Shown here piece by piece: positions 3,336 through 32,340 of a stretch of DNA of 32,428 bases; within the stretch, counting starts at the first letter, position 1; every line of letters starts with the position of its first letter. The stretch comes from Verrucomicrobiota bacterium. GTDB taxonomy: Bacteria; Verrucomicrobiota; Lentisphaeria; Victivallales; UBA1829. The translations under genes were made by a program, and so were the position numbers. The stretch covers positions 1-32,428 of the forward strand of contig JAKJHH010000021.1 of the NCBI GenBank assembly GCA_022703965.1, written 5' to 3'. The notes beneath the pieces are model-generated. The model had not been told where the DNA came from, did no database searches, and saw nothing but the letters and a program-made list of their open reading frames with translations.

Positions 3336-4346
3336 TTGGAATCAGAAATGGCAAGAGAAGCGAAGAAGATAAACATACGTCAGATTGCCGAGTTGTCGGG
3401 GTGTTCTCCGTCTACGGTTTCCAGAGTTCTTTCGTGCAAGGATACCGACATCAAAATCAGCGAGGAGACCCGCGAAAAAATCCACAGTGTCTGTCGTGAA
3501 CTCGAATATATGCCGAGTATCCACGCATCAAGATTCTTCTCGAAAACCTCGCGCATCGTCGGCTTTCTTCCCGCACGCGACACCTTTATAGAGGATGACA
3601 ATCTTGCGCGTTCAATGGACGGCGCTTATTATGCCCTGAATAAGGCAGGATATCGCTGCATGCCGCTTCTTTACGACGAGCGCTTTATTGAAGACAAGGA
3701 ATATCTCAACGTGTTCCGCAGAAAAGAAGTTGATGCTCTGATAATCTGGGGGGCCGAGGATTCTTACTCATGGCTGGACGAGCTGGCGGAGGAAAAGCTT
3801 CCTTTTATCCTTCTTGCAAACCGCTTTAAGGAGTATCCTTATTTTTCCTGCGACAACCGTTTTGCGATTGCCGAGCTGGTGCGCCATTGCCGTCTGAAGG
3901 GAGCCGAAAACTTTGCATACGTTTCGATCTGCAACGTTGACAGCTGTAATCTTCGCAAAGAGGGATATCTTGGAGCTGTTCCCGGATCTTCAGAAAGACT
4001 TGATATCATTGAAGGCGGAATGAGCATAGACGACGGCTATCGTGCCGGCGAGAGAATTCTCCAGATGAAGCCCGACGCCGTTATCTGCGGAAATGATAGA
4101 CTTGCTCTCGGAGTCGAAAAACGTCTGCTTGAAGCCGGACTCCGAATTCCTCAGGACATCCTGCTGACCGGAGGAGACAATATAGAGCTTTCCGAACATT
4201 GCCGCGTCCCGCTGACGACCTTCGATCAGATGGCAAAGGACTGCGCTATAAAAGGCGTAAACGCTTTGCTAGAACATCTTAAGAACGGTACGGAAATCAA
4301 GTCTTCCCTGATAAGCCCCCGCCACATCTTCTGCGACTCGGCATAA
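3336..4346 (+). CDS. LacI-family transcriptional regulator
   Basis: A 336-residue repressor-type protein. The N-terminal helix-turn-helix (NIRQIAELSGCSPSTVSRVLS, about residues 12-32) and hinge helix are followed by a periplasmic-binding-protein-like sugar-sensing domain (from IVGFLPARD to the C-terminus, with ICGNDRLALG near residue 245). The start is a TTG at 3336, six bases after AGGA at 3326-3329. The in-frame ATG at 3348 has a poorer, longer spacing and would remove four residues without touching the domain. It is divergent from the oxidoreductase operon and is the obvious candidate to bind the operator at 3234-3252. The effector is probably a sugar or a derivative made by that pathway (inference). 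Confidence 0.93.
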   Translation: MESEMAREAKKINIRQIAELSGCSPSTVSRVLSCKDTDIKISEETREKIHSVCRELEYMPSIHASRFFSKTSRIVGFLPARDTFIEDDNLARSMDGAYYALNKAGYRCMPLLYDERFIEDKEYLNVFRRKEVDALIIWGAEDSYSWLDELAEEKLPFILLANRFKEYPYFSCDNRFAIAELVRHCRLKGAENFAYVSICNVDSCNLRKEGYLGAVPGSSERLDIIEGGMSIDDGYRAGERILQMKPDAVICGNDRLALGVEKRLLEAGLRIPQDILLTGGDNIELSEHCRVPLTTFDQMAKDCAIKGVNALLEHLKNGTEIKSSLISPRHIFCDSA

Positions 4347-5277: not shown

Positions 5278-5306
5278 TTGTCAAGGACTATTATTTCCAG
5301 TATAAT
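5278..5306 (+). promoter_or_regulatory. Sigma70-type promoter of the pseudopilin/GH99-like genes
   Basis: TTGTCA (5278-5283), a 17-base spacer and a perfect TATAAT (5301-5306), 40 bases before the pseudopilin ATG at 5347. The AraC-type gene starts 49 bases upstream on the other strand, so its product could act here. Confidence 0.65.
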
Positions 5307-5346
5307 GAGAAGAACTTGCGTTTCATTTAAGCAGAAAGGAACTAAA

Positions 5347-6072
5347 ATGGCAGACAGGGCTCCTATCAGTACGAGATTCACCCTCATTGAACTGCTACTT
5401 GTGATTGCAATAATAGCCATTCTTAGCGGAATGCTTTTACCGGTATTGAACAAGGCACGTGGAGCTTCATTGCAGATTGCCTGCATAAATAATTTGAAAC
5501 AATGCAGTCTTGCTCTTGTGCAGTATACTGCCGACAACAGAGAATATTATCCTTACTGCATAAATAATGCGGATGGCTCGACTTGGGATAGCCGGATTCA
5601 GATTTATAGTGGTCTCAGCTGGGGTAAAAATACGATGCGTACTTTCTTGTGTCCGGCGGATAATACGGGAAGAGACTATACGAATCCGGTCTATGCGAAT
5701 TTGGCTGCGCGGAGCTATGCTGTGAATTCCGGTGCCGGATCAAGTTCCGATTTGCTCGGGATTTCATGGGGAACTGACGGAACGGGAGCCTCAAGGATAT
5801 CCAGTATCGAAAATCCGTCTTCCACCATAGCTTTGGGAGAAAGAAAGGTTCCTGATGACAGACTCATGTTCTGCGGGAATACAAGATGCTCCAATCTCTA
5901 CGCATCGGTAGCATCCAGTCCTGTGTGGGAGCAGATGCCGTATTATCACAGCAATAAGAACAATTTTCTTTATTGCGACGGACGCGCAGCAGTAAGAGAG
6001 TATATAAATACAATAGGAACAGGCACAATGAATTCCCCTCGCGGGGAATGGACAAGATCGGGAAGGGATTGA
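5347..6072 (+). CDS. Type IV pseudopilin-like protein (prepilin N-terminal methylation motif)
   Basis: A 241-residue protein. A short basic leader ends at Arg10, followed by [16 protein letters not shown], with Glu15 at the +5 position required for pilin assembly, and then [10 protein letters not shown]. The rest is a soluble domain with paired cysteines and the C-terminal H-x5-FLYCDGR pattern common to the large Lentisphaerae/Planctomycetes pseudopilin family. The ATG at 5347 is chosen because AAAGGA precedes it and the leader has the right length; the upstream in-frame start would put coding sequence over the promoter. Expected location is the inner membrane or a pseudopilus. It is transcribed with the downstream GH99-like gene (8-base gap). 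The -1 residue is Arg instead of Gly. Confidence 0.9.
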
Positions 6073-8589: not shown

Positions 8590-9207
8590 TCAGTTTTCTC
8601 TGTATTTCCAGATTTTTGCGGTACTGCTTTTTATGGGGAGAATTTCTGAAATGGAAAGAGACTGCACATGTGCGTCAATGTAAAGCAGATTGGCTCTGTT
8701 GTTATGGCGCGGATCAATGGAGTTTTTGTCTGTTCCTAAAGTCGTTTCAGGGTATAAGGCAAAAGCCCAGATATCTGCACCTGGCGGACTGTCAGTAATG
8801 TGGCCTTTTGATGAAGGAGAGACAATTGAGCCGGTTTTTTCTGAATTTGCATATTCGCATCGTATGTTTTTGGCATAAGTCCGACTATTGGATGTGGCAT
8901 ATCCCGGGCACATAAATGCAGGATTTTGATCATACGTGATATTGCCGAGATATGCTGTAAGCTTGGTCGGCCACCAGTCATAGTTTGAAACTCCGGTGTT
9001 GCTATATACCGAAACAAGATAATCATTGTAATCCATGGAGTAACTTAAAGATGCCAGTCCCATCTGCTTAAGCTTATTCTGACATGAACTCGACTTTGCC
9101 ATTGCTCGGGCTTTGTTGAGCGATGGAAGCAACATGCTTGCCAGGATTGCAATAATGGCGATAACGACAAGCAATTCTATTAAAGTGAATGCAAATTTTC
9201 TTTTCAT
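8590..9207 (-). CDS. Type IV pseudopilin-like protein
   Basis: A 205-residue protein with leader MKRKFA, then [16 protein letters not shown] (Glu11 at +5), then [10 protein letters not shown]. The body has conserved cysteines ([14 protein letters not shown]) and the C-terminal pattern [15 protein letters not shown], which is the typical H/D motif of this family. AAGGAATTATAAA before the ATG supplies a ribosome site. It follows the GH2-type gene by 17 bases, so both are probably in one transcript. Function is inferred as an envelope-anchored pseudopilin that may help place or export the partner enzyme; no member with this arrangement has a role I can name with certainty. Residue -1 is Ala. Confidence 0.9.
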
Positions 9208-9224
9208 TTTATAATTCCTTTTAA

Positions 9225-12200
9225 TCAGATAAATGTGTTTGAGGCTTCGAGAACAGTGATGCCGAAGATCATTGGATCATAAGGAGGATTTGATTCGCTC
9301 TTTATGATTATAGATTGAAGCTTCTTCTCCGGACTCTGATTTCTCCATTCAAAAACGAAGATATTTGCAACTTCGCCATCCCCGTTTGCGGGATTCTGGA
9401 AAGAAATACCAAGTTTTGCATTACGCAAATCCCCGGATTGAGCTTGACGACAGTCTCCGATCTCAGAACCGAAGCGAACGGGAACGCTGTCTTCGGTTCC
9501 ATCTGTAAATTTGAATGTTATTTTCAGAACCGAAGATGAGCTGTTGTTTTGGAAGAGAATTTTCCAGTTCCGAGTTGATGTCCATGCAAAGAAAATTGAG
9601 TCAGCCTGAATGTTGTTTGCAGGGATTTCTACACTCAGAGGAGTTTCTTTCTCGAATCTGTCTATTGGTGTATCATAAGTGATGGTTTTCAAGTCTATCT
9701 TAGAGCCTGTTCTGGCATTAAAACGTAACATCGAAGAAGCTGATGGCGATTCGGTCTTTGGGAAAATGAATGGAACAGACGCAAGCTCTGTTCTGCCTGA
9801 TGGGCAATTAGTCCCCATGTAGAATGATCTGGAGCTGTTAAGCACTTTGCTCATATCAAGAGGTATGAATTTTTTCGATTCAGATGACAGGTTTCTGATT
9901 TTTTTACCTTGGACAGCGACAGAAAGATTAGTTGACAGTTCAGCGATGAATCTGTTTCGCATATCCTGTTGCTTGACATCTCTGGCAAACGGGAGATTAA
10001 GGAAAACTATTTTACGTCCATCTGATTCAAAAACAGCATCAATGCCTTGACTTGTTGAAACTTTCCAGTCCTTGTTTCCGGCAAAGATACACGAAGGAGT
10101 AAAGAGACCTTGTCCCCATGCGAAATCATGAGAGCTTATGCCATTGAAAAGAGAAGTTTTGGAAGGAAGGAGAGATATACCCTTTAACGCTGTCGCTTTT
10201 TTACAGACAGGTGTGCTTTTGGCAAGGGAGGCAGCGAATTTTTCGATCTGATTTTCTTCCAGATTGAGAAGGAGAAGATTTTTTGCTGGAGCAGCTATTT
10301 CGATACATTTTTCAATTCCGAATATGGAAATACTGTCCCGGTCTATTGCCAGAGTAGAAGATTTAAGATCCATGTCCGGAGTGTAAGATTTCCAGCCTAA
10401 TGCAAGGAAATTTGAACATGAGTATTCCTGATTGCTGGCGAGATATATGCCGGGCTTGAGAGGCTCATTTGAGAACTCATTCAAGCGTTTGATGATTGAG
10501 TAGAAGATTCTGATTCCGGATGGAGATCTGGCCGCAAAATTAAGACAGCTTGCGATGTATAGCCCTTTTCCATTGGGGACTTCCATCAGATATACCTGAT
10601 CCAGATCATCGCCTCCATCCAGAATGTATGTGAAATTTCCTGAATCTGCTTTCAGCAAAACATTTTTACATAGAAGCAGATCATCTCCCCAGTATTTGAA
10701 ATCATTGTCGGTAAATGTCCATGAAGCATTATTCATAAGAGGGTGTGATGATGCGCGAATAAATCCTATGCACGATCCGCGATTACTGGATAGTTTTCTG
10801 GTATCAACAGGAACTGTTTCTGCGCTGAGGGCGGCATCAAGAATGAGGACTCGGCCTCCTCTTTCTGTAAATGAGGAAATATCTCCGGCTTTCGACTTTA
10901 TAGAGTCGACGGATATTGATCCGCAAATGATGAGGATTCCAGATGATGCTTGCTTAAGTTTCGCCGGATCGTCAATTTTTTCCAGAAGCAATCCGCAGGA
11001 TTTTGCCAGTTCCTCAATTGCCGAATCCTCTCCCCATATAGAGGCCTTAAGTTCGAGTTTGGGAATTTTCTGCGAAGATAGTACTTTAACAGGATCAACG
11101 TCATGGAAAACGACAGTTCCCTTTGAATCTTCAAGTCTGGCTTCAAGAGTACTGTTGCTATCTGTTTCTGATGGAGGTACTGTCACTTTAAAGATCTGTT
11201 CCGCAATAGTGTCAGGATTGATGCTTACATTGCGTGATTCAGTAAAGATGACTGATGAGGTATTGCGCAGGGATACAGTAAGTTTACCAGTAAACAAATT
11301 TTTATCATCGTTGAAGAGAATGACTTTTACTTGATTGGACGGGGATACGAGCACTGGACTTGCAAGTTTGAAATAGGCTCCGTATGCAACCGATTCCTGA
11401 CGGAAGACTTCCAGTATAGGGGAATCAAGTCCTGTGTAGAGGATGTTAGGACTGATTCCGGCAACATTCTGTTCTCTTGCGGCTCTTATTCTCAGACGCC
11501 AGTTTTCCCCTTGGAGCTTTTCGATTTCATTTTCGGATGCATTGGTATCGCTATAAAGAAGAGAATAGAAATCATCTCCATGGAAAAATGCCATATTCCG
11601 TTTTTCGCCAGGGATGAAATGTTCACCATATATCATCGGTTTTTTACCTGTCGGATTGTATTTGGTATAGTTGTCGATATAGAGTTTATTCGTCATAAGA
11701 TCCGGATTTTTTTTCCAGTACAGACAGCGTGGAAATTCAAGAGTCTCCGAAGGATAGTGAATATTGTATATATCCAGTTTTCCAAGAGCGTCCCCGAAGC
11801 CGCTATGCTGTACCGGACGTGTATTATCAAGTTTATGAATTTCTTCCTGAACTTTCAGAAGAAATTCCATTGTGGCTTCCGGGCGCGGAACAATCCAGTG
11901 TTCAAACTCATTGGAACCCGACCAGATGATAATAGAAGGATGGTTCCTCAGGTAACTTACAAAATTTCGAACATGCTCAATGCTGAGCTCGGTTTTCGGA
12001 CGGTGTGCCAGTGCGGCTTCTGCTATAAGTAGGAATCCCGCTTCATCTGCCGCATCATAGAATTCTCTGCTGAACGGTTGGCAATGGAGGCGCCCGTAAT
12101 TGAGCCCGGATGCCAGCATTCTCTCATAGACTTCTTTTGGGGAGAGTTTTTTGCCTTTGTACGTATTTTTATAACTCCATTCCCCTATATGAGCCCACGG

Positions 12201-13457
12201 TCCGCTTATTCTTATTTTCTTGCCGTTGAGATATATGTTTTCTCCGGAAATAGATACGGTGCGGTAGCCGAAACGCTCAGTTCTCTGCTGGATCAGCTTG
12301 TCATTAGAATAGATTCTGAAAGATGCATTATACAGATTGGGTTTGCCGATATCCCATTCATTGAGTTTTCCATTGCTTGGAATCGTGAATGAGAGGGCGC
12401 TTATGGAGTTTGGATCCATCGTTTTCGCTGTTTCAGACTTCAGTAACTCTTGTCCATCCATGGACTCTATCGTACAAGTGACTTTCAGTTTTTTAGAATC
12501 AGAGGACGCGTTTAGCAGTTGGGCAGAAATATCAAGCATTGAGTTTTTAATATCGCTCTTAATGAATATATCATTGACGTCACAACTGGATGAAATCTCA
12601 ATTTGAGGAGGAACAGTAAGTCCGTTGGTATACTTGAACATGGCTCCCACTGGCATTATGAAATCTCCTGAAGAATTCATGGCTGCCTTATAGTTTTCTG
12701 CTGTAATTTCGATCTCGGCTTTTCCTTCGGCGAGATACTTTGTCAGGTCAACACGCAGAGGAAGGAATCCTTCATAAAATTTGGCTGCTACTGCACCGTT
12801 TACCTTTATTGTATTAACAAAGGCACAGAAAGGAATAACGAGAACTGTTTTTTCATCAGGTTTAGGCTTGCCGTTCAGGGTAAAACGGTATTTATATGCT
12901 CTGATTTCTGTAGAAAGCGGAATAAAGTGGGAATAAGTTTTCCAGGTTCTGTTTTTATAATCGGAAGCATTTAAATTCAGTGACTGCCAGAAAGGAATGC
13001 AAGTGCTGTCATTCTCGCCTTCTCCTAGAGGCATAGCAGCAAGAGCGTTGACGGCTGTTGATTCCGGATTCCCGTCTTTACGTTCAGGAATCTGGTATGC
13101 AGGGACTTTTGTGTTCAGCGTTTCAGTAAGACTTGAGGCATTTTCATAAAAAGTGGCTTTTTCAAACTTCACTGTAGATGGAATTGCAGAAAAAGAGACT
13201 CTGTCAAAAGTATCTGATGGCGAAAATGCCAGCAAATCAACTTTGCGGTTTTTTCCTCCTGCAAGTTTGTATACATTGCAATTCTTAAGCTCTTGATCCT
13301 TTGAGAAAAAACGGATATTGAGATTCTTAGAGTCGATACTATCTGTTCCCATAATGGAAATAGAGAACGCCTTGGAGGGAGAATCAGCGGTGAACATTTC
13401 AGCATCCGGTGCAGTTTGTGTGGTATCTTGATTAGAGCTAGAGGAGTCACTTGTCAA
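9225..13457 (-). CDS. Giant GH2-type glycoside hydrolase, 5' end lost at an IS junction
   Basis: Numbering is from the first possible start, a TTG at 13457 (1410 residues). Order: an N-terminal region, a GH2 sugar-binding/jelly-roll part ([24 protein letters not shown]), an immunoglobulin-like part, and a TIM barrel (from about residue 405, [17 protein letters not shown]). The proposed acid/base is Glu517 in WSGSNEFEH and the nucleophile Glu612 in IYGEHF. More than 700 residues follow, including a Rossmann-like segment and C-terminal beta domains. Coding character clearly continues upstream of 13457 ([27 protein letters not shown]) to about 13540, where it runs into transposase sequence and then a stop at 13581-13583. 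No usable start, signal peptide or promoter remains, so the gene is probably inactive as it stands. Substrate may be a beta-galactoside, beta-mannoside or glucuronide. Confidence 0.85.
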
Positions 13458-13540
13458 TTTTAGACCGGATAGTTGAAGTGTCCAATAGTCCTTCGGGAGA
13501 ACTCCCTCTATAGCGATTTTTACAAAGCGCCAGCTTTTCT

Positions 13541-13828
13541 GAGAGTTGTAACCCTCAAAGCAATGGCAAGCTTGAGCGTTTTAATGGGACATTCAAGCAG
13601 GAGTGCATACGTCCCAAAGTACCGCTCTCAAAAGAAGAAGCTGAGCGTGAAGCCAAGAAATTTGTTGATTACTACAACAACGAACGTCTGCACAGTGCAA
13701 TAGGCTATATAAGCCCGAAAACAAAACTCGAAGGAAAGGAACGCGAAATATTTGAGCTCAGAGAAGAGCGCTTTGCCGCAGCAAGATTAGAGCGACAGAT
13801 CAAAAATAAAATCAGACAAGTTGCTTGA
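13541..13828 (+). pseudogene. IS3-family-type transposase, C-terminal remnant
   Basis: About 96 codons remain of an integrase-core transposase. The plus-strand frame reads CNPQSNGKLERFNGTFKQEC, then KKFVDYYNNERLHSAIGYISP and a basic tail ending at TGA 13826-13828. NGKLERF carries the last acidic residue of the DDE triad, and YYNNERLHSAIGYISP is the standard closing motif of the rve core. Everything upstream of the motif, including the first two catalytic aspartates, is absent, so it cannot transpose. It lies precisely between the truncated 5' ends of two divergent hydrolase genes. Confidence 0.85.
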
Positions 13829-13896
13829 AATGTTTTTTAAGCATAATAACAGTATTATTAATAGCTAAGCTGTTTTTCAAAAAGTTCATTTTTCGC
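13541..13896 (+). mobile_element. Truncated insertion sequence fragment (boundaries approximate)
   Basis: The left edge is inside the transposase gene, where GH2 coding sequence on the other strand stops making sense (about 13540-13560). The right edge lies between the transposase stop (13828) and the point where the GH39-like frame becomes open (13900). The 70 bases after the transposase stop are AT-rich with weak inverted repeats (TAATAA-N5-TTATTA near 13845). I cannot identify a matching left terminal repeat or target-site duplication, as expected if the left half was deleted. Confidence 0.6.
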
Positions 13897-13899
13897 TGA

Positions 13900-16800
13900 A
13901 CCAAGACAGTTCCGGGCTATGAAGGGGTAAATGCATGGCAGCTTGAACTTCCTGATTTTTACATCAACGAGGATTGTGAGGTCGAAGTATCTTTTGATGC
14001 AAAGACAGGATCTGCTATTGATGGAAAAGTATATGATGATCTGTCTTATTATCTGGACTTTCGAGCAATGCCTGACAAGGCAAAAGGACAATCATATTAC
14101 ACAGTACTGACAGGATTCGGATTTAAGCCTGTTCAGGGAGAATGGAAGCGTTTTTCAAAAAAGTTTAAAGCCATTAAAAATGACAATTTCTATCTCGTAT
14201 ATATCGCTGCAAATGCAGGACTTAACAATAATACTCAAAACAGTCTTTATCTTGATAACTTTAAAATAGAAGTACTGGGCAAGACTAAGAAAAATGCTGC
14301 TGAAATTGCAATTATTCCCTCGCAGCTTGAAGCTGTTTATAATAAGGACGAGGAGATTTCATTTAACCTGCGAGCATTGCTTGATTCCTCTGGCGACACT
14401 GAAACAGTAATTCTTGATATTCAGAGAGATTATGATGATAAAATCGTCAAGAAATTGAATGTAAAATTGAAGAAGAACGATTTTGTCAAAGGGCTTTATA
14501 CCGGAACCGTAAATTTCAAATCCGATCTTTTCGGTGCTTTCCATTGCAGTGTCTCAAATTCGGACAATATCTTATCAGTCGCAGGCGGAGACTTTTCGGT
14601 CATACATCCTCTGGTCAAACATAAATATCTGAGTCCGGGCTGGAGCATCGGCTTCAACAAGGACAGTTCCTGTCCTTCCGGAAGGAATCCTAAAGAAATT
14701 GATTTTACATCATATTACTGGCTCTTTTTTGGTTCTTTCGAGCGCGAATTCAGGATCGCGAGAATGTCCGGCATGAATCTTTCCCGCTTCTGGGGACACT
14801 GGCGCTATATTGAGCCTGAAGAGAATCAATTCCGTCTCGATGTTGTTCAGCCTTCAATGGATATGTATAAAAAGTACGATATTGATGTTATGTTTGTGCT
14901 TGGTGCAGACATGATGCCTTACAGCAGTAAAGAAGACGCGGACAAGACCTTTGCGAGCAACAAGAACAATATTCCTGCTTATATGCAGAAATATTATAAA
15001 ATGGCTTCAGAGAAACGAGGTTCAATACAGCCTCCGATGGACCTGTATAAGCGTTATCTTGACTATGTGCTGGAGAGTTGGGGAAAAGATGTAAAAGTAT
15101 GGGAGCTTTTCAACGAGCCCGGCCTTGGCGGGACTCCTGCAAAAGTTTATATCGATTATCTGAAGGAGACATATAAGACAGTCAAGGCTTTTGACAAGAA
15201 TGCTCCTTTGCTTGGCAACGGCGTTACAGGTGATTTCGGTATGAATGTTATAAAGTGGTGTGAGTCTCTGAACGAGGCTGATTCCGGCTATGAAAATTAT
15301 CTTGACGGCATAGCATTCCATCCATACGGCGGCTGTCTTGATTACCAGAAAGGGAACTACTTCCTTTACTCAAAGGTAATCAGCGACATCAGGAGCAAGC
15401 TCAAAGATAAAAAACCTCTCTGGAACACCGAATGCTTTTATATCACAAATTCCAGAAAGCCTCAGCGCGAATGGTACATAAACCTTTCCGAGGTTGGAGC
15501 AGGTGAACATCAGCGTCATTTACTTGAAAGCATGATGAATGGCGTCAAAGGCATTACAGCGTTGGCTGAAACGAGCATGTATAAAAGATCCGCACCTGTA
15601 ACAATTGCTCCGGCCTCGGAGATTGTTCCGGCGACGAATGCGCTTTCATTTATGCTGAAAGATATGGATAAGCTGGAAGTTCTGAGCTTGAATAAGTTCA
15701 TTAAGTCCGGCGTGTTCAGCAGTCAGGACGGCTCAAAGGCGCTTGGCTTTGTTTATGACCTGCGTCCTTCCGGCAGTCGTTGGGAACTTGCCGCTTCTCC
15801 ATGTAAGATATATGATCTCTTCGGCAATCCAGTGAGTGAAAAAAGTATTGCGCTGACTTACGAGCCTTACTATATTTCCGGAAGCCCTGCCGAGGTGAAA
15901 GCCTGTCTTGAGAAGTCGAAATTCATTCCCTCTAATCCGCTTGGACTGAAGGGGCGTTTCTTCAAGGATACTCTTTATATTGAGGGCAAAAACAACAGCG
16001 GAGCTCCTTGCGGCATCGAAGTCTCATTCAAGGGAGGAGACGCTGTACCGGCAAAAGTGGAATTTGTTTTCGGAAATGAATTGCTGTATAACACTCTTGC
16101 GTTTAAAGGCGCTTCAATAAAGAAGAGTCTTGACTGGGAAGCTTCCGTCGGAGGAGAAAAGAGCGGGAAGGGGACTCTTGAGATTCTTCCTTCAACTGGA
16201 GATTATGAGCTTGCTGGCGAGCCTGTGAAATTTACTTTGTCGAAAGGCTCGCTGCTGGAATTGAGCAGTGACGCTGAGTGTTTGAAGATAAAGGCCTTTG
16301 TCAAGGAATCCTCGATTGATGCGGCAAAGAATTCCAATTTATGGGAGGGCGATGCCGTTGAAATCTTTATCGATCCACAGCCTTTCGGCATGATGGATCA
16401 GCCTTATTCCATGATGGCAGGCGGTGCTTCAATGAATGTCTATCAGTATGTTTTTGCGGCAGCGCCTTCTGAGAACGGAACAAGTATAAGAGCGATGAAC
16501 AAGCTTAGAGGGGATTTCAAAAGCAAGGCATCTTCAACAACCGAAAAGATGGATGGCGGCTATGTCCTTTCGATTTCGATTCCTTTTGACGAACTTGAAG
16601 GACTCCACAAAGATTGCATCATAGGAATGGATCTTGAAATAGATCATCAGAATGCCGGAAAGACGGAGAAAGAATCCTTGGGATCAATGCCGGGAAGGTC
16701 GTATATCGAAAGATTGCATTATCCGCTTTTCAAAATAAACGGGGCACTCAAAAAAAAACTGAATTTAGAACTGCAAAATAAGGATTTTACTCTCGGAACA

Positions 16801-17289
16801 TACGGAGACCCCGAAGGCTGGTGCTATAAGATATTCGCCGGAACGGCAGTGAAAACTGTAGACGGCATAGGATTCGGTGGAAAGCGTGGTCTTCTCTTAA
16901 ATTTTCCAGAGGGTTCAGGAGACGGGAAGAGTCCCCTTTCCGTTATACAGCGCATAAAGGTGGAACCCGCTTTGCATGGGCTTGTAGTTTTTTCGGGACT
17001 CCTTAGAACAGAAGGACTAAAGCAAAGAAAATTAGCTCATATTAGCGGCAAGGAAACTGCCGGGCTACTCTTTCTTATTGATTTTTATGATGTCAAAGGA
17101 AAACACCTTGGATCGGCATTCTGGAAGGATCAGCAGGATGGAGATTTTCCGGTAAAAACAGACTGGAAAATATATCAGTTTTTTTCAGCAATTCCGTCAG
17201 GAACCGCTGAACTTACGCTTCAGTGCGGAATAAAAGCAAACGCATGCGGTATAGTATATGTCGATAATGTGAATCTAAGTTTTTTATAA
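13900..17289 (+). CDS. GH39-like glycoside hydrolase with CBM domains, N-terminus missing
   Basis: The frame is open from just after a TGA at 13897-13899. The first ATG (14068) has no ribosome site and lies inside a folded domain, so the true start is lost. Order: a CBM4/9-like jelly roll (about 13910-14280, ending LYLDNFKIEVLG), a linker/Ig-like part, and a clan GH-A barrel (from WSIGFN). Acid/base candidate is Glu350, counted from 14068, in WELFNEP; nucleophile is Glu455 in WNTECFY. A CBM9/DOMON-like domain follows (about 16200-16740, with WEGDAVEIFIDPQPFG), then a second CBM4/9-like jelly roll at the C-terminus (VYVDNVNLSFL). GH39 members release beta-xylose or iduronate among others; the specificity here is not readable. 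No signal peptide remains because of the IS junction. Confidence 0.85.
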   Translation, partial: TKTVPGYEGVNAWQLELPDFYINEDCEVEVSFDAKTGSAIDGKVYDDLSYYLDFRAMPDKAKGQSYYTVLTGFGFKPVQGEWKRFSKKFKAIKNDNFYLVYIAANAGLNNNTQNSLYLDNFKIEVLGKTKKNAAEIAIIPSQLEAVYNKDEEISFNLRALLDSSGDTETVILDIQRDYDDKIVKKLNVKLKKNDFVKGLYTGTVNFKSDLFGAFHCSVSNSDNILSVAGGDFSVIHPLVKHKYLSPGWSIGFNKDSSCPSGRNPKEIDFTSYYWLFFGSFEREFRIARMSGMNLSRFWGHWRYIEPEENQFRLDVVQPSMDMYKKYDIDVMFVLGADMMPYSSKEDADKTFASNKNNIPAYMQKYYKMASEKRGSIQPPMDLYKRYLDYVLESWGKDVKVWELFNEPGLGGTPAKVYIDYLKETYKTVKAFDKNAPLLGNGVTGDFGMNVIKWCESLNEADSGYENYLDGIAFHPYGGCLDYQKGNYFLYSKVISDIRSKLKDKKPLWNTECFYITNSRKPQREWYINLSEVGAGEHQRHLLESMMNGVKGITALAETSMYKRSAPVTIAPASEIVPATNALSFMLKDMDKLEVLSLNKFIKSGVFSSQDGSKALGFVYDLRPSGSRWELAASPCKIYDLFGNPVSEKSIALTYEPYYISGSPAEVKACLEKSKFIPSNPLGLKGRFFKDTLYIEGKNNSGAPCGIEVSFKGGDAVPAKVEFVFGNELLYNTLAFKGASIKKSLDWEASVGGEKSGKGTLEILPSTGDYELAGEPVKFTLSKGSLLELSSDAECLKIKAFVKESSIDAAKNSNLWEGDAVEIFIDPQPFGMMDQPYSMMAGGASMNVYQYVFAAAPSENGTSIRAMNKLRGDFKSKASSTTEKMDGGYVLSISIPFDELEGLHKDCIIGMDLEIDHQNAGKTEKESLGSMPGRSYIERLHYPLFKINGALKKKLNLELQNKDFTLGTYGDPEGWCYKIFAGTAVKTVDGIGFGGKRGLLLNFPEGSGDGKSPLSVIQRIKVEPALHGLVVFSGLLRTEGLKQRKLAHISGKETAGLLFLIDFYDVKGKHLGSAFWKDQQDGDFPVKTDWKIYQFFSAIPSGTAELTLQCGIKANACGIVYVDNVNLSFL

Positions 17290-23302: not shown

Positions 23303-26089
23303 TTATTCGAGTATTACAGATTGATAGGTTTTTATATCTGAATGTCCGTATTCCTGCGGGAAATAAGCTTTTATGTAGCTTTCATCAAGGTCATCCACAA
23401 TGACTGCGAACTTGAAGCTTGAGGCTTTTTCCGGTGTGATTCCGGTGTGCTTCCACGGAATGCGGGCGGAGAGTTTCCAGATGCCGTTTGCGTTTGAGAA
23501 ATCTATTTTGACGTCCTTCAGGCTGCTGTTTGCGGATGGACCGCTCCACGCGTAGGCTTCCGGAGCTGAGCCGTCGGAATGGCCGCAGACTGCAATTTGA
23601 GCGTCGTTGAACCAGATTTCGATGGTATCGCCGTTCCAGATATCTTCACCGTGTTTATCGTTGATAAATTTATCGTCCATGATTTCCGCGTCGAGAATGA
23701 AAGCATCCTTATCCCATGAGAGCTTTAGCAGAGGCGAGAAGTTTTCCTTTTTGATGGAGCTTCTGACAAAAGGAATGATTTCGAGTTTGCTGTCTTTTTG
23801 TATTTTGAGCGGAGTTTTTGAGCTTTTTGTAGACTCAGGACGATAGAACTTATTCATATCGAGCGTGAAAGCTTTTTCGAGACCCTGATGTATTCTGAAA
23901 ACGCGTGCATTAGTTTTTCTTGCTTCCTCGATGAGCTCATAATAAGGCTGGTCGCACTGAGTTACGAAGCCGAAATTATGGTTTTCGCCGCCGATGGTTT
24001 TTGCTCCGGGAGACTGGTCTGCGGACTCAAACCATGAGAAGCCTGCGAAGAGAGGATTTGCGGCGATATTTTCCACATAATGTCTGTAGGCGAGTCCGCG
24101 TTCTTCCTGAGTCTGACATGTGCTGGTTTCACCGTAGGAGCGGAGTCCCTTGCCGGTACAGACGAAGGAGAATTCCGTCATCATCAGAGGCTTGCCGATT
24201 TTTTTGAAGGTGTCCATATGTCTGTTAGCCCAGTTCATCTCAAGGCTGTAATCATGAAGGAGGATTCCGTCGCAGTAGGGAGCTCCGGCTTCAATCCAGT
24301 ATATGGACTGGAGCGTGCAATGGGCATCGCCGAAGACAAGGTGATTCGGGTCGATTGATTTAAAATATTTCTGAACTTTTTCGTGGTAAAGTTTTGAGGC
24401 AATAACAGTGAATTCATCCATCAGGTTCTGAGGAATTTTGAAGTTTGCAATGACTTTATTGCGTGCCTCGGAAGGACTCATGCCAAGCATTTCAGCGGTC
24501 TTGGCTTCTCCTATTTTTTCCAGAAGGAAGTCTATGAAAGCTTTTTTGGCCGGGATTTCCTTTTCGGTCTTCATGAGTTCCTTGAATGTCTTTGGTCCCC
24601 AGCCGTTTTCATTCTGGAAGACCCAGCCGATGAGATACGGATCATCTTTCATTGAAAGTATGGTTTTTTCCATGTTCTTGAGCGCTTCATCAAAACGCGG
24701 ATCAAAGGGATCTGAAGATGGATTATCCTTGCCGATTCCAGGGTATCCGTAGGCGTTGATGTCGTAAAGATATGGCAGCTTAAGTTCTGGCTCAATCCAC
24801 CACTGTCCGGCGGCGTTGAAGCCCCAGTCATTGAGACGTTTCATGGTCACATCCGCCCATATTTTTCTGAACTCTTGCCCATATTTGCGCTTGAGATTGG
24901 CGGCGGGAAAACTGATGCTGTCTTTTCTGCTGTAGGCATCAGGGAATTCATTTTTATCGGGCAGCTCGCTGAAGATATCTCTTGGGCTGCCGTCCTTGTT
25001 TTTGAGCGGAGTACCGCGTCCGAACTTTGTATAATTGAGGCTGTCCATCCCTTTCAGGAAAAAGAGGTGTCCTTCGGGACTGACGAGCCACCAGCGTCCA
25101 TCCACTTTCTCGAAGCGGAAGAAGCCTGTAGCCTTAAAATTGCCGGCAGAGAGTTCTCCTCCGTACATATCGCATCCGTCGGCAGGAAGAGGCTTTGTGT
25201 TTTTCAGTAAATCAGCTTCTTTTTGAGCGTCGGCAACGAGATCTGCATCTGATTTGATTTTGTCCGGCCAGTCCGCGAGATTGTACTGTCCGTATTTATC
25301 TAGAAGGGGAATCGCCTGAATTTTTGATGAGGCTGCTGCGCTGTCCGCTGGCGGTTCATCGTTGAGTTTTAGATTATGGAGAGCCTTGATTTCCTCATCG
25401 CTCAGTATACCGGTGTAGAGGCGGAATTCGCTGATTTCACCCTTGAATCTGCTGACTGAACCGGAAGCGTTAACGAACTGGCCGATATACCATTCTTTAA
25501 CTTTTAGAGAGGATGGCATGAGGACAGAGCCTGCTGAAAGGATTTTCTGTCCGTCAACGTAGAGATAAGTTTCTCCGCTCTGTGTATTGCTTGTGACGGC
25601 GACACTGAGCCATTGTCCTGCTGGGATTACGGCGGATTTACTGCCTGTATCGCCGCCTTTTTCGCCATTGCCGCATTCAAAACGCAGGAATCGGTTGTTT
25701 GTGTCAAAGGAATTGATGAAGAATCTGAAACCGTTTTTTGTATAGCCGCCTTCGCTGTTCGAGGCTATTATCATGCTGCTGTTATTATCGTCAGCGCGAA
25801 GTCTGGCGAAAATGCTGAAGCTTTTTGGGAATTCGGTCTCTCCTGCTTTAAGGCGGGTGCTACCGTCGAAAACGATTGCTTCATCGCCGTTCGAGGTCTT
25901 GGCGAAGCTTATTTTTCCTTCCGGTACTGCCTGGATACCGTCGCAACGGATTTTTCCGTTATCGACGTGTACTTTCATGATTCTAAGCACTTTTGATGAA
26001 TCGCTTTTCATATCCTGAGCCGGACTCGAAAAGATGGCAAGACTCAGGAAAGAAGACAAGAAGAGGGTCTTGATGTGAGCTTTTCTCAT
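23303..26089 (-). CDS. Secreted LamG - GH50/GH42-like glycosidase - CBM9-like enzyme
   Basis: A 928-residue protein with signal peptide (TLFLSSFLSLAIFSSPAQ). Residues about 60-240 are a LamG domain. The barrel opens with VDGRWWLVSPEGHLFFLKG, a signature of GH50-type agarases and relatives. Proposed acid/base is Glu494 in GWVFQNENGW and nucleophile Glu639 in MMTEFSF, the layout of clan GH-A retaining enzymes. The C-terminal ~170 residues form a CBM9/DOMON-like domain (FILDAEIMDD, WNGDTIEIWFND, ARIPWKHTG). This points to cleavage of a beta-galactoside-type polysaccharide (inference). AGGAG ten bases before the ATG lies at the end of the upstream pseudopilin gene. GH50 against GH42-like subfamily cannot be settled by eye. 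Confidence 0.8.
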   Translation of the reverse strand: MRKAHIKTLFLSSFLSLAIFSSPAQDMKSDSSKVLRIMKVHVDNGKIRCDGIQAVPEGKISFAKTSNGDEAIVFDGSTRLKAGETEFPKSFSIFARLRADDNNSSMIIASNSEGGYTKNGFRFFINSFDTNNRFLRFECGNGEKGGDTGSKSAVIPAGQWLSVAVTSNTQSGETYLYVDGQKILSAGSVLMPSSLKVKEWYIGQFVNASGSVSRFKGEISEFRLYTGILSDEEIKALHNLKLNDEPPADSAAASSKIQAIPLLDKYGQYNLADWPDKIKSDADLVADAQKEADLLKNTKPLPADGCDMYGGELSAGNFKATGFFRFEKVDGRWWLVSPEGHLFFLKGMDSLNYTKFGRGTPLKNKDGSPRDIFSELPDKNEFPDAYSRKDSISFPAANLKRKYGQEFRKIWADVTMKRLNDWGFNAAGQWWIEPELKLPYLYDINAYGYPGIGKDNPSSDPFDPRFDEALKNMEKTILSMKDDPYLIGWVFQNENGWGPKTFKELMKTEKEIPAKKAFIDFLLEKIGEAKTAEMLGMSPSEARNKVIANFKIPQNLMDEFTVIASKLYHEKVQKYFKSIDPNHLVFGDAHCTLQSIYWIEAGAPYCDGILLHDYSLEMNWANRHMDTFKKIGKPLMMTEFSFVCTGKGLRSYGETSTCQTQEERGLAYRHYVENIAANPLFAGFSWFESADQSPGAKTIGGENHNFGFVTQCDQPYYELIEEARKTNARVFRIHQGLEKAFTLDMNKFYRPESTKSSKTPLKIQKDSKLEIIPFVRSSIKKENFSPLLKLSWDKDAFILDAEIMDDKFINDKHGEDIWNGDTIEIWFNDAQIAVCGHSDGSAPEAYAWSGPSANSSLKDVKIDFSNANGIWKLSARIPWKHTGITPEKASSFKFAVIVDDLDESYIKAYFPQEYGHSDIKTYQSVILE

Positions 26090-26772
26090 TATGTGGAACT
26101 CCTATTTGGATGTATGTGAAAAGATGTCGTCCTGATTTCCCTTGAGTGACAGATAACTGCGTCCGTCAACGTGGAGCGCGTGCCCATGTCATGAATCGGG
26201 ATTGCCTCATGTATGTTGGTTCCCGGAGACCATGGCTGGCAGATTGGACAGAATACTCCACCGACCGTTTTTTGTGTGTCGGTTCTTATCGTGTCAGTAA
26301 TCATGAGACGTTTTGAGGCATTCTTGTAATCCTGAAGTCTTGGATATCTGGCGTATCCGAAATTATGGGTTTCCAGAGGGCTGAGTCCGCCTCCACCCCA
26401 GGTTGTATCAATCTGTGCATCTGTAAATGATGGACAACGCCAGATTCCGGAACAAGCGGTTCCAAGTGGTTCATAATCCCATTTGCTGACAGAGAGGTAT
26501 CCGCCGTTTACGAGAATATTGCGCCACCAGCCTTTTTGAACATATGAAGCGAAATTTGCACCGTAATTCATACATGGAAGATACCCTGCAAAATCATTGG
26601 AATATAGACCCATACCGAGGCCGATCTGTTTGAGATTACTACGGCAGAGGATTGTTTTTGCCTTGTCCCTCGCGCTTTGGAGGGCAGGAAGCAGCATGCC
26701 CGCGAGTATTGCGATGATGGCAATGACAATCAGGAGCTCAATGAGAGTGAAATGTTTTTTTCTGGATTTCAT
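26089..26772 (-). CDS. Type IV pseudopilin-like protein with a shifted C-terminus
   Basis: Leader MKSRKKH, then [16 protein letters not shown] (Glu12 at +5), [12 protein letters not shown] and a soluble domain with cysteines ([18 protein letters not shown]). As written it has 227 residues, and the final ~35 do not resemble the family. Inserting one G into the GGG at 26183-26185 restores [19 protein letters not shown], the normal C-terminal H/DG pattern, and moves the stop to 26104-26102, just before the AGGAG of the next gene. So the written end overlapping the next ATG is probably an artefact of a one-base deletion. It is second in the operon, 12 bases after the LacI gene (GAGGAT before the ATG). 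Residue -1 is His. Confidence 0.88.
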
Positions 26773-28854: not shown

Positions 28855-29361
28855 ATGGACAAGAATATCCTTTATATAATACTTCCTCCGCTTTTCATTG
28901 TTGCGGCGTATACCGAAATGAAGAGCCGGAAGATTCCGAATTACCTGACCTACGGTGCGATAATATGTGCCGTGACAGGATCTTTTATCAGCGGAGGCTT
29001 GCCCGGACTTCAGAACTCCGTGCTTGGGCTTCTGATAGGCGGCGGAATTTTTCTGCCGTTCTGTCTTGTCGGTGCGCTCGGAGGCGGTGATTTCAAGCTT
29101 ATGGCTGCGGCCGGGGCTGTTGTGGCTTATCCTATGATATTCTGGGCCTTGTATTACACCTGCCTGTCCGGAGGAGTGCTTGCGCTTCTCTATATGATAT
29201 GGTCAGGACGTTTTCTGAGCAGTTTTGAAAACATTTTCAGAATGCTCCTTGGAATGAAACGCAAGGAAAAACCCGGCGAGGGACTTAAAAAGGAAATCAC
29301 AGTGCCTTACGGCATTGCGATTGCGGCAGGAACTCTTTGGGCGATTGTCATGGCTTCCTGA
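28855..29361 (+). CDS. tadV: TadV/CpaA-type prepilin peptidase (A24 family)
   Basis: A 168-residue integral membrane protein with about five or six hydrophobic segments, the size of the short A24B peptidases that process Flp pilins. The second catalytic motif is intact (GALGGGDFKLM, Asp79). The first, normally D-x5-IPN, reads EMKSRKIPN, with Glu21 where the catalytic aspartate is expected. GGGAG lies four bases before the ATG. It follows the two pilin genes and precedes the TadE/TadG-like genes, all of which carry matching cleavage sites. Activity with Glu in place of Asp is uncertain. Confidence 0.9.
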   Translation: MDKNILYIILPPLFIVAAYTEMKSRKIPNYLTYGAIICAVTGSFISGGLPGLQNSVLGLLIGGGIFLPFCLVGALGGGDFKLMAAAGAVVAYPMIFWALYYTCLSGGVLALLYMIWSGRFLSSFENIFRMLLGMKRKEKPGEGLKKEITVPYGIAIAAGTLWAIVMAS

Positions 29362-29376
29362 CAGAGGGAGAGCATA

Positions 29377-30591
29377 ATGGGACAAAAATTCAGAAACTGG
29401 CTTGGGCGTTTCAGAAAAAATGACGCAGGAACCGCCAGACTGGTCTGCAGGCGTTTCGCTTCCGGACGGGGCACCGCTTTTCTTGAATTTGCTTTAGTGC
29501 TTCCTCTTCTTCTTGCTGTAACTACTTTCATTATAGAAGTCTGCACCTATTGGGATGCCACTGTAATGGCAAACCATACAGCTTTCACGCTTGCGAGAAT
29601 CGCCAAGGTCAATGTCGTGGCCGGAAAAGTGGCTTTCCCGTCAGCTCTCAAGATTAAAAATACTTCCATTATGGATTCCGAAAAATTTACTACCACTATG
29701 CTTATGATGACCGCCACCAGCGGCTGGTTCAAAGGAACCAAGGAATGGATAAGCTTTCCCGACATCAAGGGAATTATACAAAAACTTATCTTCAAGAAAG
29801 AAGGCTCCGGCGGGGGCATTTTTGAATTTCTCATGAGCGCGATTCAGGGACTCCTTGATCCGCTTTTGGAGAAGCTTAACAAATTTCTGGAGGACATGAT
29901 TCAGAAGGCGTTTTCCGCCATTTTCGGACAGAGCGGCGGCCTGATGGCAAACCGTTATCTCAATTTGTACCGTATGGCTTATCAACGCTCAAAAATGGAC
30001 GGAGTGATAAAGACAGACGTAATAAGTCTCAAAGGCAAGACCATAAAGTATCCTACGCATATTGACTGGGAAGCATATTGGTTCTGGAAGGTTCCGCGCG
30101 TAAACGAGTATAAAAACCCGGCGATAGTGAGGGTTACAGTAAACTATCCTGTTACTGAAAACTGGATTTATGCGGCATTCATGCCGGGGGCGTCCAAAGG
30201 GAAAGTCTGCGCGACAGGGGTTGCCGCCATGCTTGTCGAACCTGATAAATTCAGCTCTTCTTACATTGCGACAAAATCCGGAGGAGTGCCTGAGAAGATT
30301 CCTGACTTCCAGAAAAATGAACAGGCATATAAAGAAGCCACCGACAAGTACTATGAGGCGAAGAAAAGCAGAGAAGATGCCGAGGCCGAGCTGAAAAAGC
30401 TTAAATCCAAGAAGGAAGAGCTTACCGAAGAGGAGAAAAAGCAGCAGGAAGACCTCGAAAAGAAGGTTAAGGACTTGAAGCAGAAAGAAGACGATGCTTA
30501 TAAAAAGGCAAAGGATCTCTATGGAAAAGTGAGCGGCGCTCCAGGTTCAGATAAGAGCGAGAAGAATAAAAGCAATAAAAAAAGCAAGTAG
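29377..30591 (+). CDS. TadE-like pilus pseudopilin with long coiled-coil tail
   Basis: A 404-residue protein. The basic leader ends RFASGRG (Gly32); the mature N-terminus TAFLEFALVLPLLLAVTTFI has Glu37 at +5, the TadE signature. A large soluble domain follows (about residues 60-290). The final ~100 residues (about 305-390) are almost wholly Lys/Glu with heptad-like spacing (EAELKKLKSKKEELTEEEKK, EDLEKKVKDLKQKED), ending in a lysine/serine tail. TadE proteins are usually under 200 residues, so this is roughly twice normal size. GAGGGAG precedes the ATG, 15 bases after the peptidase stop. Role inferred as a minor pseudopilin in Tad pilus assembly with an added structural arm. Confidence 0.82.
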   Translation: MGQKFRNWLGRFRKNDAGTARLVCRRFASGRGTAFLEFALVLPLLLAVTTFIIEVCTYWDATVMANHTAFTLARIAKVNVVAGKVAFPSALKIKNTSIMDSEKFTTTMLMMTATSGWFKGTKEWISFPDIKGIIQKLIFKKEGSGGGIFEFLMSAIQGLLDPLLEKLNKFLEDMIQKAFSAIFGQSGGLMANRYLNLYRMAYQRSKMDGVIKTDVISLKGKTIKYPTHIDWEAYWFWKVPRVNEYKNPAIVRVTVNYPVTENWIYAAFMPGASKGKVCATGVAAMLVEPDKFSSSYIATKSGGVPEKIPDFQKNEQAYKEATDKYYEAKKSREDAEAELKKLKSKKEELTEEEKKQQEDLEKKVKDLKQKEDDAYKKAKDLYGKVSGAPGSDKSEKNKSNKKSK

Positions 30592-30599
30592 GATATCTG

Positions 30600-31661
30600 A
30601 TGGAAATACTGAACAGATTCAAAAGACTTCACAGTGATGAAAACGGGGTGGCTCTGATTTATGCCGCCATTATTTCATTTCTGATTCTGGCTTTTTGCAG
30701 CATGATATGGGACACCGCCAAGATGTCGGAAACCAAGATGCAGACGCAGAACGCCGCTGATGCGGCTGCTCTGGAAATGGCTGCATGGCAGGCAAGAGGC
30801 ATGAACATGGTACAGGCATTGAATGAGGATATTTACGATACAGATAACATGCTCGGTTATACCTACGGAGCTCTTGCCGGACTGGAAACGCTGGCAAAAC
30901 TTGCTTACATAGTCGGAGCAGGCAAGGCTGCCGAAATAGCTTTGGCGGTTCCCATATACGCGGCCTGGGCGACTCATGCGGTGATGGTAAATCTTTTCAT
31001 GAAACCATTGCGTTTCGTGTATGCTAACGGGTCTATATTAATAGGTTACATTGCGGCGAATAATGCGGCGAAGGTCAACGGTGCGCCGGGAATATTTACG
31101 GCTCTTCTTCCGGATAAGTCTTCGGGAAATATTTTGTGGGATGGAGTGGTTAAAGTTTTGCGACCGCTTTTCAAAGAGTTTACGGCTGTAGGGATTCCGA
31201 CCGCCACGGGCTCAATTCTTACGCTTCCGCTGGCGGCTAAACATGACAAATCATATCCGCTTTACTCTAAAAATAATATACTTTTGAAGGCGGCTCTTGG
31301 GATTTTGAAGTCAAATTCATTTGTCAAGGTAAAGCTGGAACCTTGGGATGACGAATATTATGAATCGAAATCGCCGTATGATAAAAAAGAGCTTCCCGCC
31401 TGGGTCTGGTTTATTAAGGGACAGTCTGAAACCGGTCTGATATCCTCTTATTTTATTGGAGGAGGGGACAATGTTCAAAAAGTGCCGGTAATGGCATATG
31501 CCGTCGCAAGAGTCAAGGGCGGAAATGTGGTCAAATACAATGATGATAAGCATAAATTCAGGCCGACCGGATGCGGAGTCGGAGCGGATCCCTCTCTTAT
31601 TTCATGGGGCAAGATAGATACTATCCCCTGGAAACTTATGAGTGTGATTTGCTATCATTGA
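30600..31661 (+). CDS. TadG-like Flp pilus assembly protein
   Basis: A 353-residue protein whose N-terminus carries the TadE/G helix after a leader FKRLHSDENG (VALIYAAIISFLILAFCSMI, no Glu at +5, as usual for TadG). It continues KMQTQNAADAAALEMAAWQA, the hallmark stretch of TadG-like proteins. The C-terminal part lacks any visible vWA metal-site motif (DxSxS), so it is shorter than canonical TadG. A hydrophobic segment at about residues 100-145 may contact the membrane. The ATG overlaps the end of a GTAGGAT ribosome site, eight bases after the TadE-like stop. It probably helps build or anchor the pilus in the envelope. Confidence 0.82.
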   Translation: MEILNRFKRLHSDENGVALIYAAIISFLILAFCSMIWDTAKMSETKMQTQNAADAAALEMAAWQARGMNMVQALNEDIYDTDNMLGYTYGALAGLETLAKLAYIVGAGKAAEIALAVPIYAAWATHAVMVNLFMKPLRFVYANGSILIGYIAANNAAKVNGAPGIFTALLPDKSSGNILWDGVVKVLRPLFKEFTAVGIPTATGSILTLPLAAKHDKSYPLYSKNNILLKAALGILKSNSFVKVKLEPWDDEYYESKSPYDKKELPAWVWFIKGQSETGLISSYFIGGGDNVQKVPVMAYAVARVKGGNVVKYNDDKHKFRPTGCGVGADPSLISWGKIDTIPWKLMSVICYH

Positions 31662-31680
31662 AAGAAAAGAGAAAAGAAGA

Positions 31681-32340
31681 ATGAGAAACAGAAGAAATCT
31701 ATTTTACAAGGTATTCGGTCGTGAGCGCGGCGCGGTTTTTCTTGAAACTGCTCTCGTCATGCCGGTTTTCATTGTCATGCTCTGTTTCTGCGTGGATTTT
31801 CCTAGAATCATGACTATACAGCAGCGTCTTGTCAGCGCAAACCGTCTGGTTGCAGAGATCAAAGCCAGAAACGAAGGCAATTATGACAAGGTTATAAAGG
31901 AAGCCGATCTGAAGAACTATTGTTTTCCCGGAATGAAGTATTGTTCAACTCCCAAAATATGGACAGTAAAAAATAAAGGCTCATGTCTCTGGAATCTTTC
32001 CGAGACTTTTAAGGGGTTTCTTGGAAGCATAGGCTCTAAAATTACAGGAATTATCGCCAATATTATCAGCGGAGGCACACTGGGGGCATATTTTTCTGAC
32101 TTGGTTGAGGCGGATAAGTTTTATGGCGGCTATGTGTCTGTCGATGTGGATACAATTCTGCCGCCCGTGGTATATAGAAGCTGGGTTGGCTCTTCCTCAC
32201 GCTTCGCAAAGGGAGATTCGTTGAGGGTCGGCTCTCGATATGTGTGTTATATGCCTAACTGTGATGGATTCGTATTGCATGGTTCTTCATGGATAGGTTC
32301 AGTAAAGAACTTTTTCAAAGGTTGGACTCAGAAAAAGTAA
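31681..32340 (+). CDS. TadE-like pilus assembly pseudopilin
   Basis: A 219-residue protein. Leader MRNRRNLFYKVFGRERG, then AVFLETALVMPVFIVMLCFC with Glu22 at +5 from the Gly17 cut, the TadE arrangement. The remainder is a soluble domain with several cysteines (NYCFPGMKYCSTP, GSCLW, YVCYMPNC), which could form disulfides outside the cytoplasm. It begins 19 bases after the TadG-like stop with a weak purine-rich ribosome site (AAGAAG). Together with the 404-residue protein it gives two TadE-type subunits, as in classical tad loci with TadE and TadF. Confidence 0.82.
   Translation: MRNRRNLFYKVFGRERGAVFLETALVMPVFIVMLCFCVDFPRIMTIQQRLVSANRLVAEIKARNEGNYDKVIKEADLKNYCFPGMKYCSTPKIWTVKNKGSCLWNLSETFKGFLGSIGSKITGIIANIISGGTLGAYFSDLVEADKFYGGYVSVDVDTILPPVVYRSWVGSSSRFAKGDSLRVGSRYVCYMPNCDGFVLHGSSWIGSVKNFFKGWTQKK

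Follow-up and report, generated by a model that had tools for sequence, protein, structure and literature searches.

An IS3-like remnant at the joint of two beheaded hydrolase loci in an uncultured Victivallales-type bacterium

How two large hydrolase genes came to lie head to head without their starts, with the tail of a transposase gene wedged between them, is the question raised by the stretch of DNA analysed here (the window; 32,428 nt). The window makes up contig C133; the assembly it belongs to is fragmented, with 4.22 Mb in 380 contigs at a completeness of 78% and a contamination of 0.5%. The features that bear on the question are the following, with the IS remnant and both junctions delimited by comparison with a longer copy of the element on contig C8.

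8590–9207, minus strand: pseudopilin (N_methyl/DUF1559) gene directly downstream of the GH2 gene (Pfam N_methyl, SBP_bac_10)
9225–13550, minus strand: 5′-truncated GH2 glycoside hydrolase gene, 1441 codons left (Pfam and relatives)
13550–13551, no strand: junction 1, GH2 interior to orfB interior, no IS terminus, apparently illegitimate (identity to C8 stops abruptly)
13551–13908, plus strand: IS3-like remnant, C-terminal part of orfB and right terminal repeat, left part missing (match to C8)
13908–13909, no strand: junction 2, right IS terminus to interior of the GH39-like gene, apparently an ordinary insertion boundary (terminus as in C8)
13909–17289, plus strand: 5′-truncated GH39-like (clan GH-A type) hydrolase gene with a C-terminal CBM9-like domain (relatives; CBM9_1)

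The product of the minus-strand gene matches Glyco_hydro_2 (42.9 bits) and Glyco_hydro_2_C (49.5 bits) above the Pfam cut-offs, and its residues 5–1436 are 35–36% identical to an intact 1741-codon ORF in G027 and G133, two genomes which are near-identical at this locus and were counted as one observation. Homology to these relatives extends to within about 5 codons of position 13550; judged from them, about 290 N-terminal codons are missing, including a signal-peptide-like start (such starts were read by eye from the sequences of the intact GH2 and GH39-like relatives). The frame, whose own stop codon is at 9225, stays open beyond 13550, fused into the interior of orfB, up to a stop at 13581–13583; the first in-frame start left is a TTG at 13457, which lies some 30 codons inside the GH2 homology, with coding continuing past it. 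The initial annotation, which described a GH2 gene running without a start into a transposase tail, thus holds.

Its description of the plus-strand gene, coding that emerges behind the IS equally without a start, is borne out as well. The 1126 codons left are 30–41% identical to intact relatives along their whole length; the frame is open from 13900, homology begins at 13909 (VPGYEG versus LPGYKG), and the first in-frame ATG, at 14068, is internal to conserved sequence, with about 75–85 N-terminal codons and a signal-peptide-like start lost by comparison with relatives. Since Pfam returned CBM9_1 but no GH39 domain for the product, and a profile of it gave weak PDB matches to GH-A type enzymes, “GH39-like” is to be read as a clan-level label.

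Whether the two genes had ever been neighbours was judged from related loci, drawn both from a search of 137 genomes of the order and from a GTDB scan, the latter contributing metagenome assemblies of Victivallales, Lentisphaeria and Planctomycetota. On the GH2 side, the pseudopilin at 8590–9207 has a counterpart, 38–39% identical, immediately downstream of GH2 in G027/G133, the genomes with the only full-length relatives of GH2, which indicates that this side is still at its own old locus. On the other side, a co-directional pseudopilin gene lies directly upstream of the GH39-like gene in eight of ten distinct relative loci (L087, L088, L090, L091, L092, L093, L063 and L061; none was seen in L089 or L094), and in no relative locus is that position taken by GH2. 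Close relatives of the truncated ends of both genes occurred together in none of the other order genomes (137 searched), and the two genes were adjacent neither in those 137 nor in the flanks of the GTDB-scan loci. With a pseudopilin and never GH2 upstream of the GH39-like gene, and with GH2 keeping its own neighbour, it appears that two separate loci have been joined. A shared divergent promoter as the ancestral state, the loss of which had been proposed initially, is thus unlikely from the arrangement in relatives. Compared with the loci in Victivallales/Lentisphaeria and Planctomycetota in which GH2 and GH39-like genes stand beside DUF1559 pseudopilins, the window genes have the same domain make-up, and GH2 the same neighbour on its retained side; unlike their counterparts, both lack their 5′ ends.

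Adjoining of DUF1559-type pseudopilin genes and large secreted hydrolase genes in the same orientation is a repeated pattern, seen in the window at 5278–6072, 8590–9207 and 26089–26772 and among relatives in L060–L063 and L087–L093; the pairing with GH39-like genes is found in Victivallales-type and Planctomycetota assemblies. A literature search on pseudopilin/hydrolase pairs in Lentisphaera turned up nothing relevant. A further gene group at 28855–32340, which includes a TadE-like protein and reaches the contig end, is apparently a Tad-type pilus cluster.

The element between the two genes is recognized by its other copies and fragments in the same genome:

C8 (L004), 10951–12026: longest copy, 1076 bp, with orfA and orfB
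C71 (L069), 9070–9252: left end, lying within an asparagine synthase-type gene; identity to C8 98%
C363 (L005), about 3670–3893: MITE-like derivative of ~220 bp with both ends and without transposase, 82–90% identical to C8
C327: left end, 63 bp

In the C8 copy, the upstream orfA contains HTH_Tnp_1, and orfB matches rve_3 (1.5e-18), rve (2.2e-9) and rve_2; the best match of orfB is NCBIfam transpos_IS3 (3.4e-30), with 105 bits against a cut-off of 160, as the protein is shortened internally; IS481 follows close behind. The copy is defective, for orfB meets rve only from profile position 35 and the first part of the catalytic (DDE) domain is gone. Its termini read TGTCTTGCC... at the left and ...AACCAAGACA at the right; as inverted repeats, the left end is TGTCTTGCCTCAGC... 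and the right end, reversed, TGTCTTGGTTCAGC..., of which the window keeps the right one only. Judged by the orfB domain, orfA and the terminal inverted repeats, the element belongs to the IS3-like type. With the IS3 family (orfA/orfB, DDE transposase) it shares the orfB tail with rve, the HTH_Tnp_1-type orfA of the C8 copy and the TGTCTTG terminal repeats; it differs in that the window holds a 358-bp fragment and even the C8 copy is without the first catalytic-domain part. No near copies were found outside its own genome among the 137 genomes of the order. A second transposase fragment lies 0.6 kb from the C8 copy. C71, considered as the missing partner of the window, was rejected because its left flank is the asparagine synthase-type gene, neither GH2 nor GH39.

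The window remnant matches C8:11669–12026 in 357 of 358 positions (99.7%; E = 2.5e-184, far beyond chance), with the sole mismatch at 13772, and covers the right third of the longer copy including the right terminus (...AAGACA); orfA is absent, and only the C-terminal part of orfB and the right terminal repeat are kept. Similarity between the two is lost directly to the left of 13551 and, on the other side, to the right of about 13908–13910. The transposase tail reported initially is therefore real, while the edges assigned to it (13457–13900) give way to 13551–13908.

With these edges the two junctions turn out to be unlike in kind. At the right, the terminus ends at the identical base in C8 and the window, followed by GTCC in the former and GTTC in the latter, and GH39 homology starts on the very next base (VPGYEGVNAWQLELPDFYINEDCEVEVSFDAKTG versus LPGYKGLCSYRFSLEDFYIYDDCEVEISFDAKAG), so that junction 2 reads as a normal insertion boundary inside coding sequence. 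Junction 1, by contrast, joins the interior of GH2 to an internal position of the IS and reads as an illegitimate joint. The initial view that this was “not a simple insertion” is well founded. As to a target-site duplication, which would measure 3–5 bp in the IS3 family, the left flank is gone in the window, and none is visible around the C8 copy.

The arrangement was probably reached in two steps. An IS3-like element would first have entered the 5′ part of the GH39-like gene, its right boundary persisting as junction 2; the GH2 gene would then have been joined to it by a deletion, or by another illegitimate rearrangement, between a breakpoint in orfB and one in GH2. The second step would have cost at least 0.7 kb of the IS, about 0.23 kb of the GH39-like gene, about 0.87 kb of GH2 and everything between, including the control region of GH2 and whatever lay upstream of the GH39-like gene, which in most relatives is a pseudopilin gene. 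Two hydrolase loci would thereby have come to stand head to head, both genes without start, signal peptide and promoter. The unlike junctions, the homology of both genes reaching up to them and the disappearance of both upstream contexts speak for this account, as do the even composition across the joint and the searches of this genome, which returned no second copy of either gene, no missing 5′ end and no reciprocal product. Insertion plus a single deletion is preferred as the version with the fewest steps; on the window side, an inversion or a translocation at these breakpoints would leave the identical picture. A reciprocal product was not found in the flanks of C8, C327 and C363 in this incomplete genome.

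There is precedent in IS150, a member of the IS3 family: IS-associated deletions that extend stepwise are documented for it (PMC11708052) from the long-term evolution experiment with E. coli. On the account given here, the cases are alike in that the IS lies at the deletion edge and insertion comes first and deletion second; the IS150 deletions have no target duplication around the IS. Unlike them, the element here has lost its own left part, the breakpoint lying inside it. Among the three options of the initial annotation (IS-mediated deletion, recombination between IS copies, assembly mis-join), a deletion or illegitimate rearrangement starting from within the IS fits best, with the other two as possible alternatives.

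The more serious of these is a metagenome mis-join, in which two different molecules, one carrying a truncated IS beside GH2 and the other the right end of the IS within the GH39-like gene, would have been merged in the 358 bp common to both. Usual assembly k-mers are shorter than that, the assembly is split into 380 contigs at 78% completeness, and trouble at this same IS is documented by C71, which terminates inside its copy and so exposes a break at the repeat. However, junction 1 is off any repeat boundary, so a real fusion of GH2 and IS would be needed anyway, and the error would come on top of two rearranged alleles. Moreover, C8, which alone among the other contigs has a near-identical right half of the IS, differs at 13772, composition (GC content included) is even across the joint, and neither gene has an intact or partial second version in the assembly: a search for second copies returned only distant paralogs, at most 34% identical over parts. 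A search for the missing 5′ ends with the N-termini of relatives, a weak test with queries about 35% identical and a genome about 78% complete, gave nothing significant. No papers were found on mis-joins at insertion sequences. Taken together, we regard a mis-join as unlikely.

Two IS copies, one already truncated beside GH2 and one in the GH39-like gene, could likewise have swapped flanks by homologous recombination, and substrates are present in the copies or fragments on C8, C71, C363 and C327. It would require an extra, earlier truncation beside GH2, though, and the other IS-bearing contigs, to which the analysis of contig ends was confined, carry neither the missing 5′ ends nor reciprocal flanks, as far as the incomplete genome goes; we consider such an exchange rather improbable. 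Transposase-driven adjacent deletion that set out from the left IS terminus and was extended by a second one reaching into the element is very improbable, for despite the stepwise-growing cases known for IS150 (PMC11708052), the classical process would keep both IS termini, and with the left part of the element lost the step would have gone without a trace.

The event looks recent, since the remaining frames of both genes (1441 and 1126 codons) are free of stop codons. Both truncated genes are probably pseudogenes, and young ones. A consensus scan detected no plus-strand promoter reading out of the right IS end. It would come as a great surprise if the joint were kept and the truncated proteins were still produced, for example from a TTG start or from an ATG within the gene, to serve as intracellular enzymes; in that event the IS would have brought about a change of location instead of two pseudogenes. 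For annotators the locus is a warning that both genes are 5′-truncated and do not form a divergent operon pair. What it records is genome decay of an ordinary kind and no new system: two genes truncated in connection with an IS. In an uncultured bacterium of Victivallales type, a single IS-linked rearrangement has very probably put two genes for polysaccharide degradation out of action.
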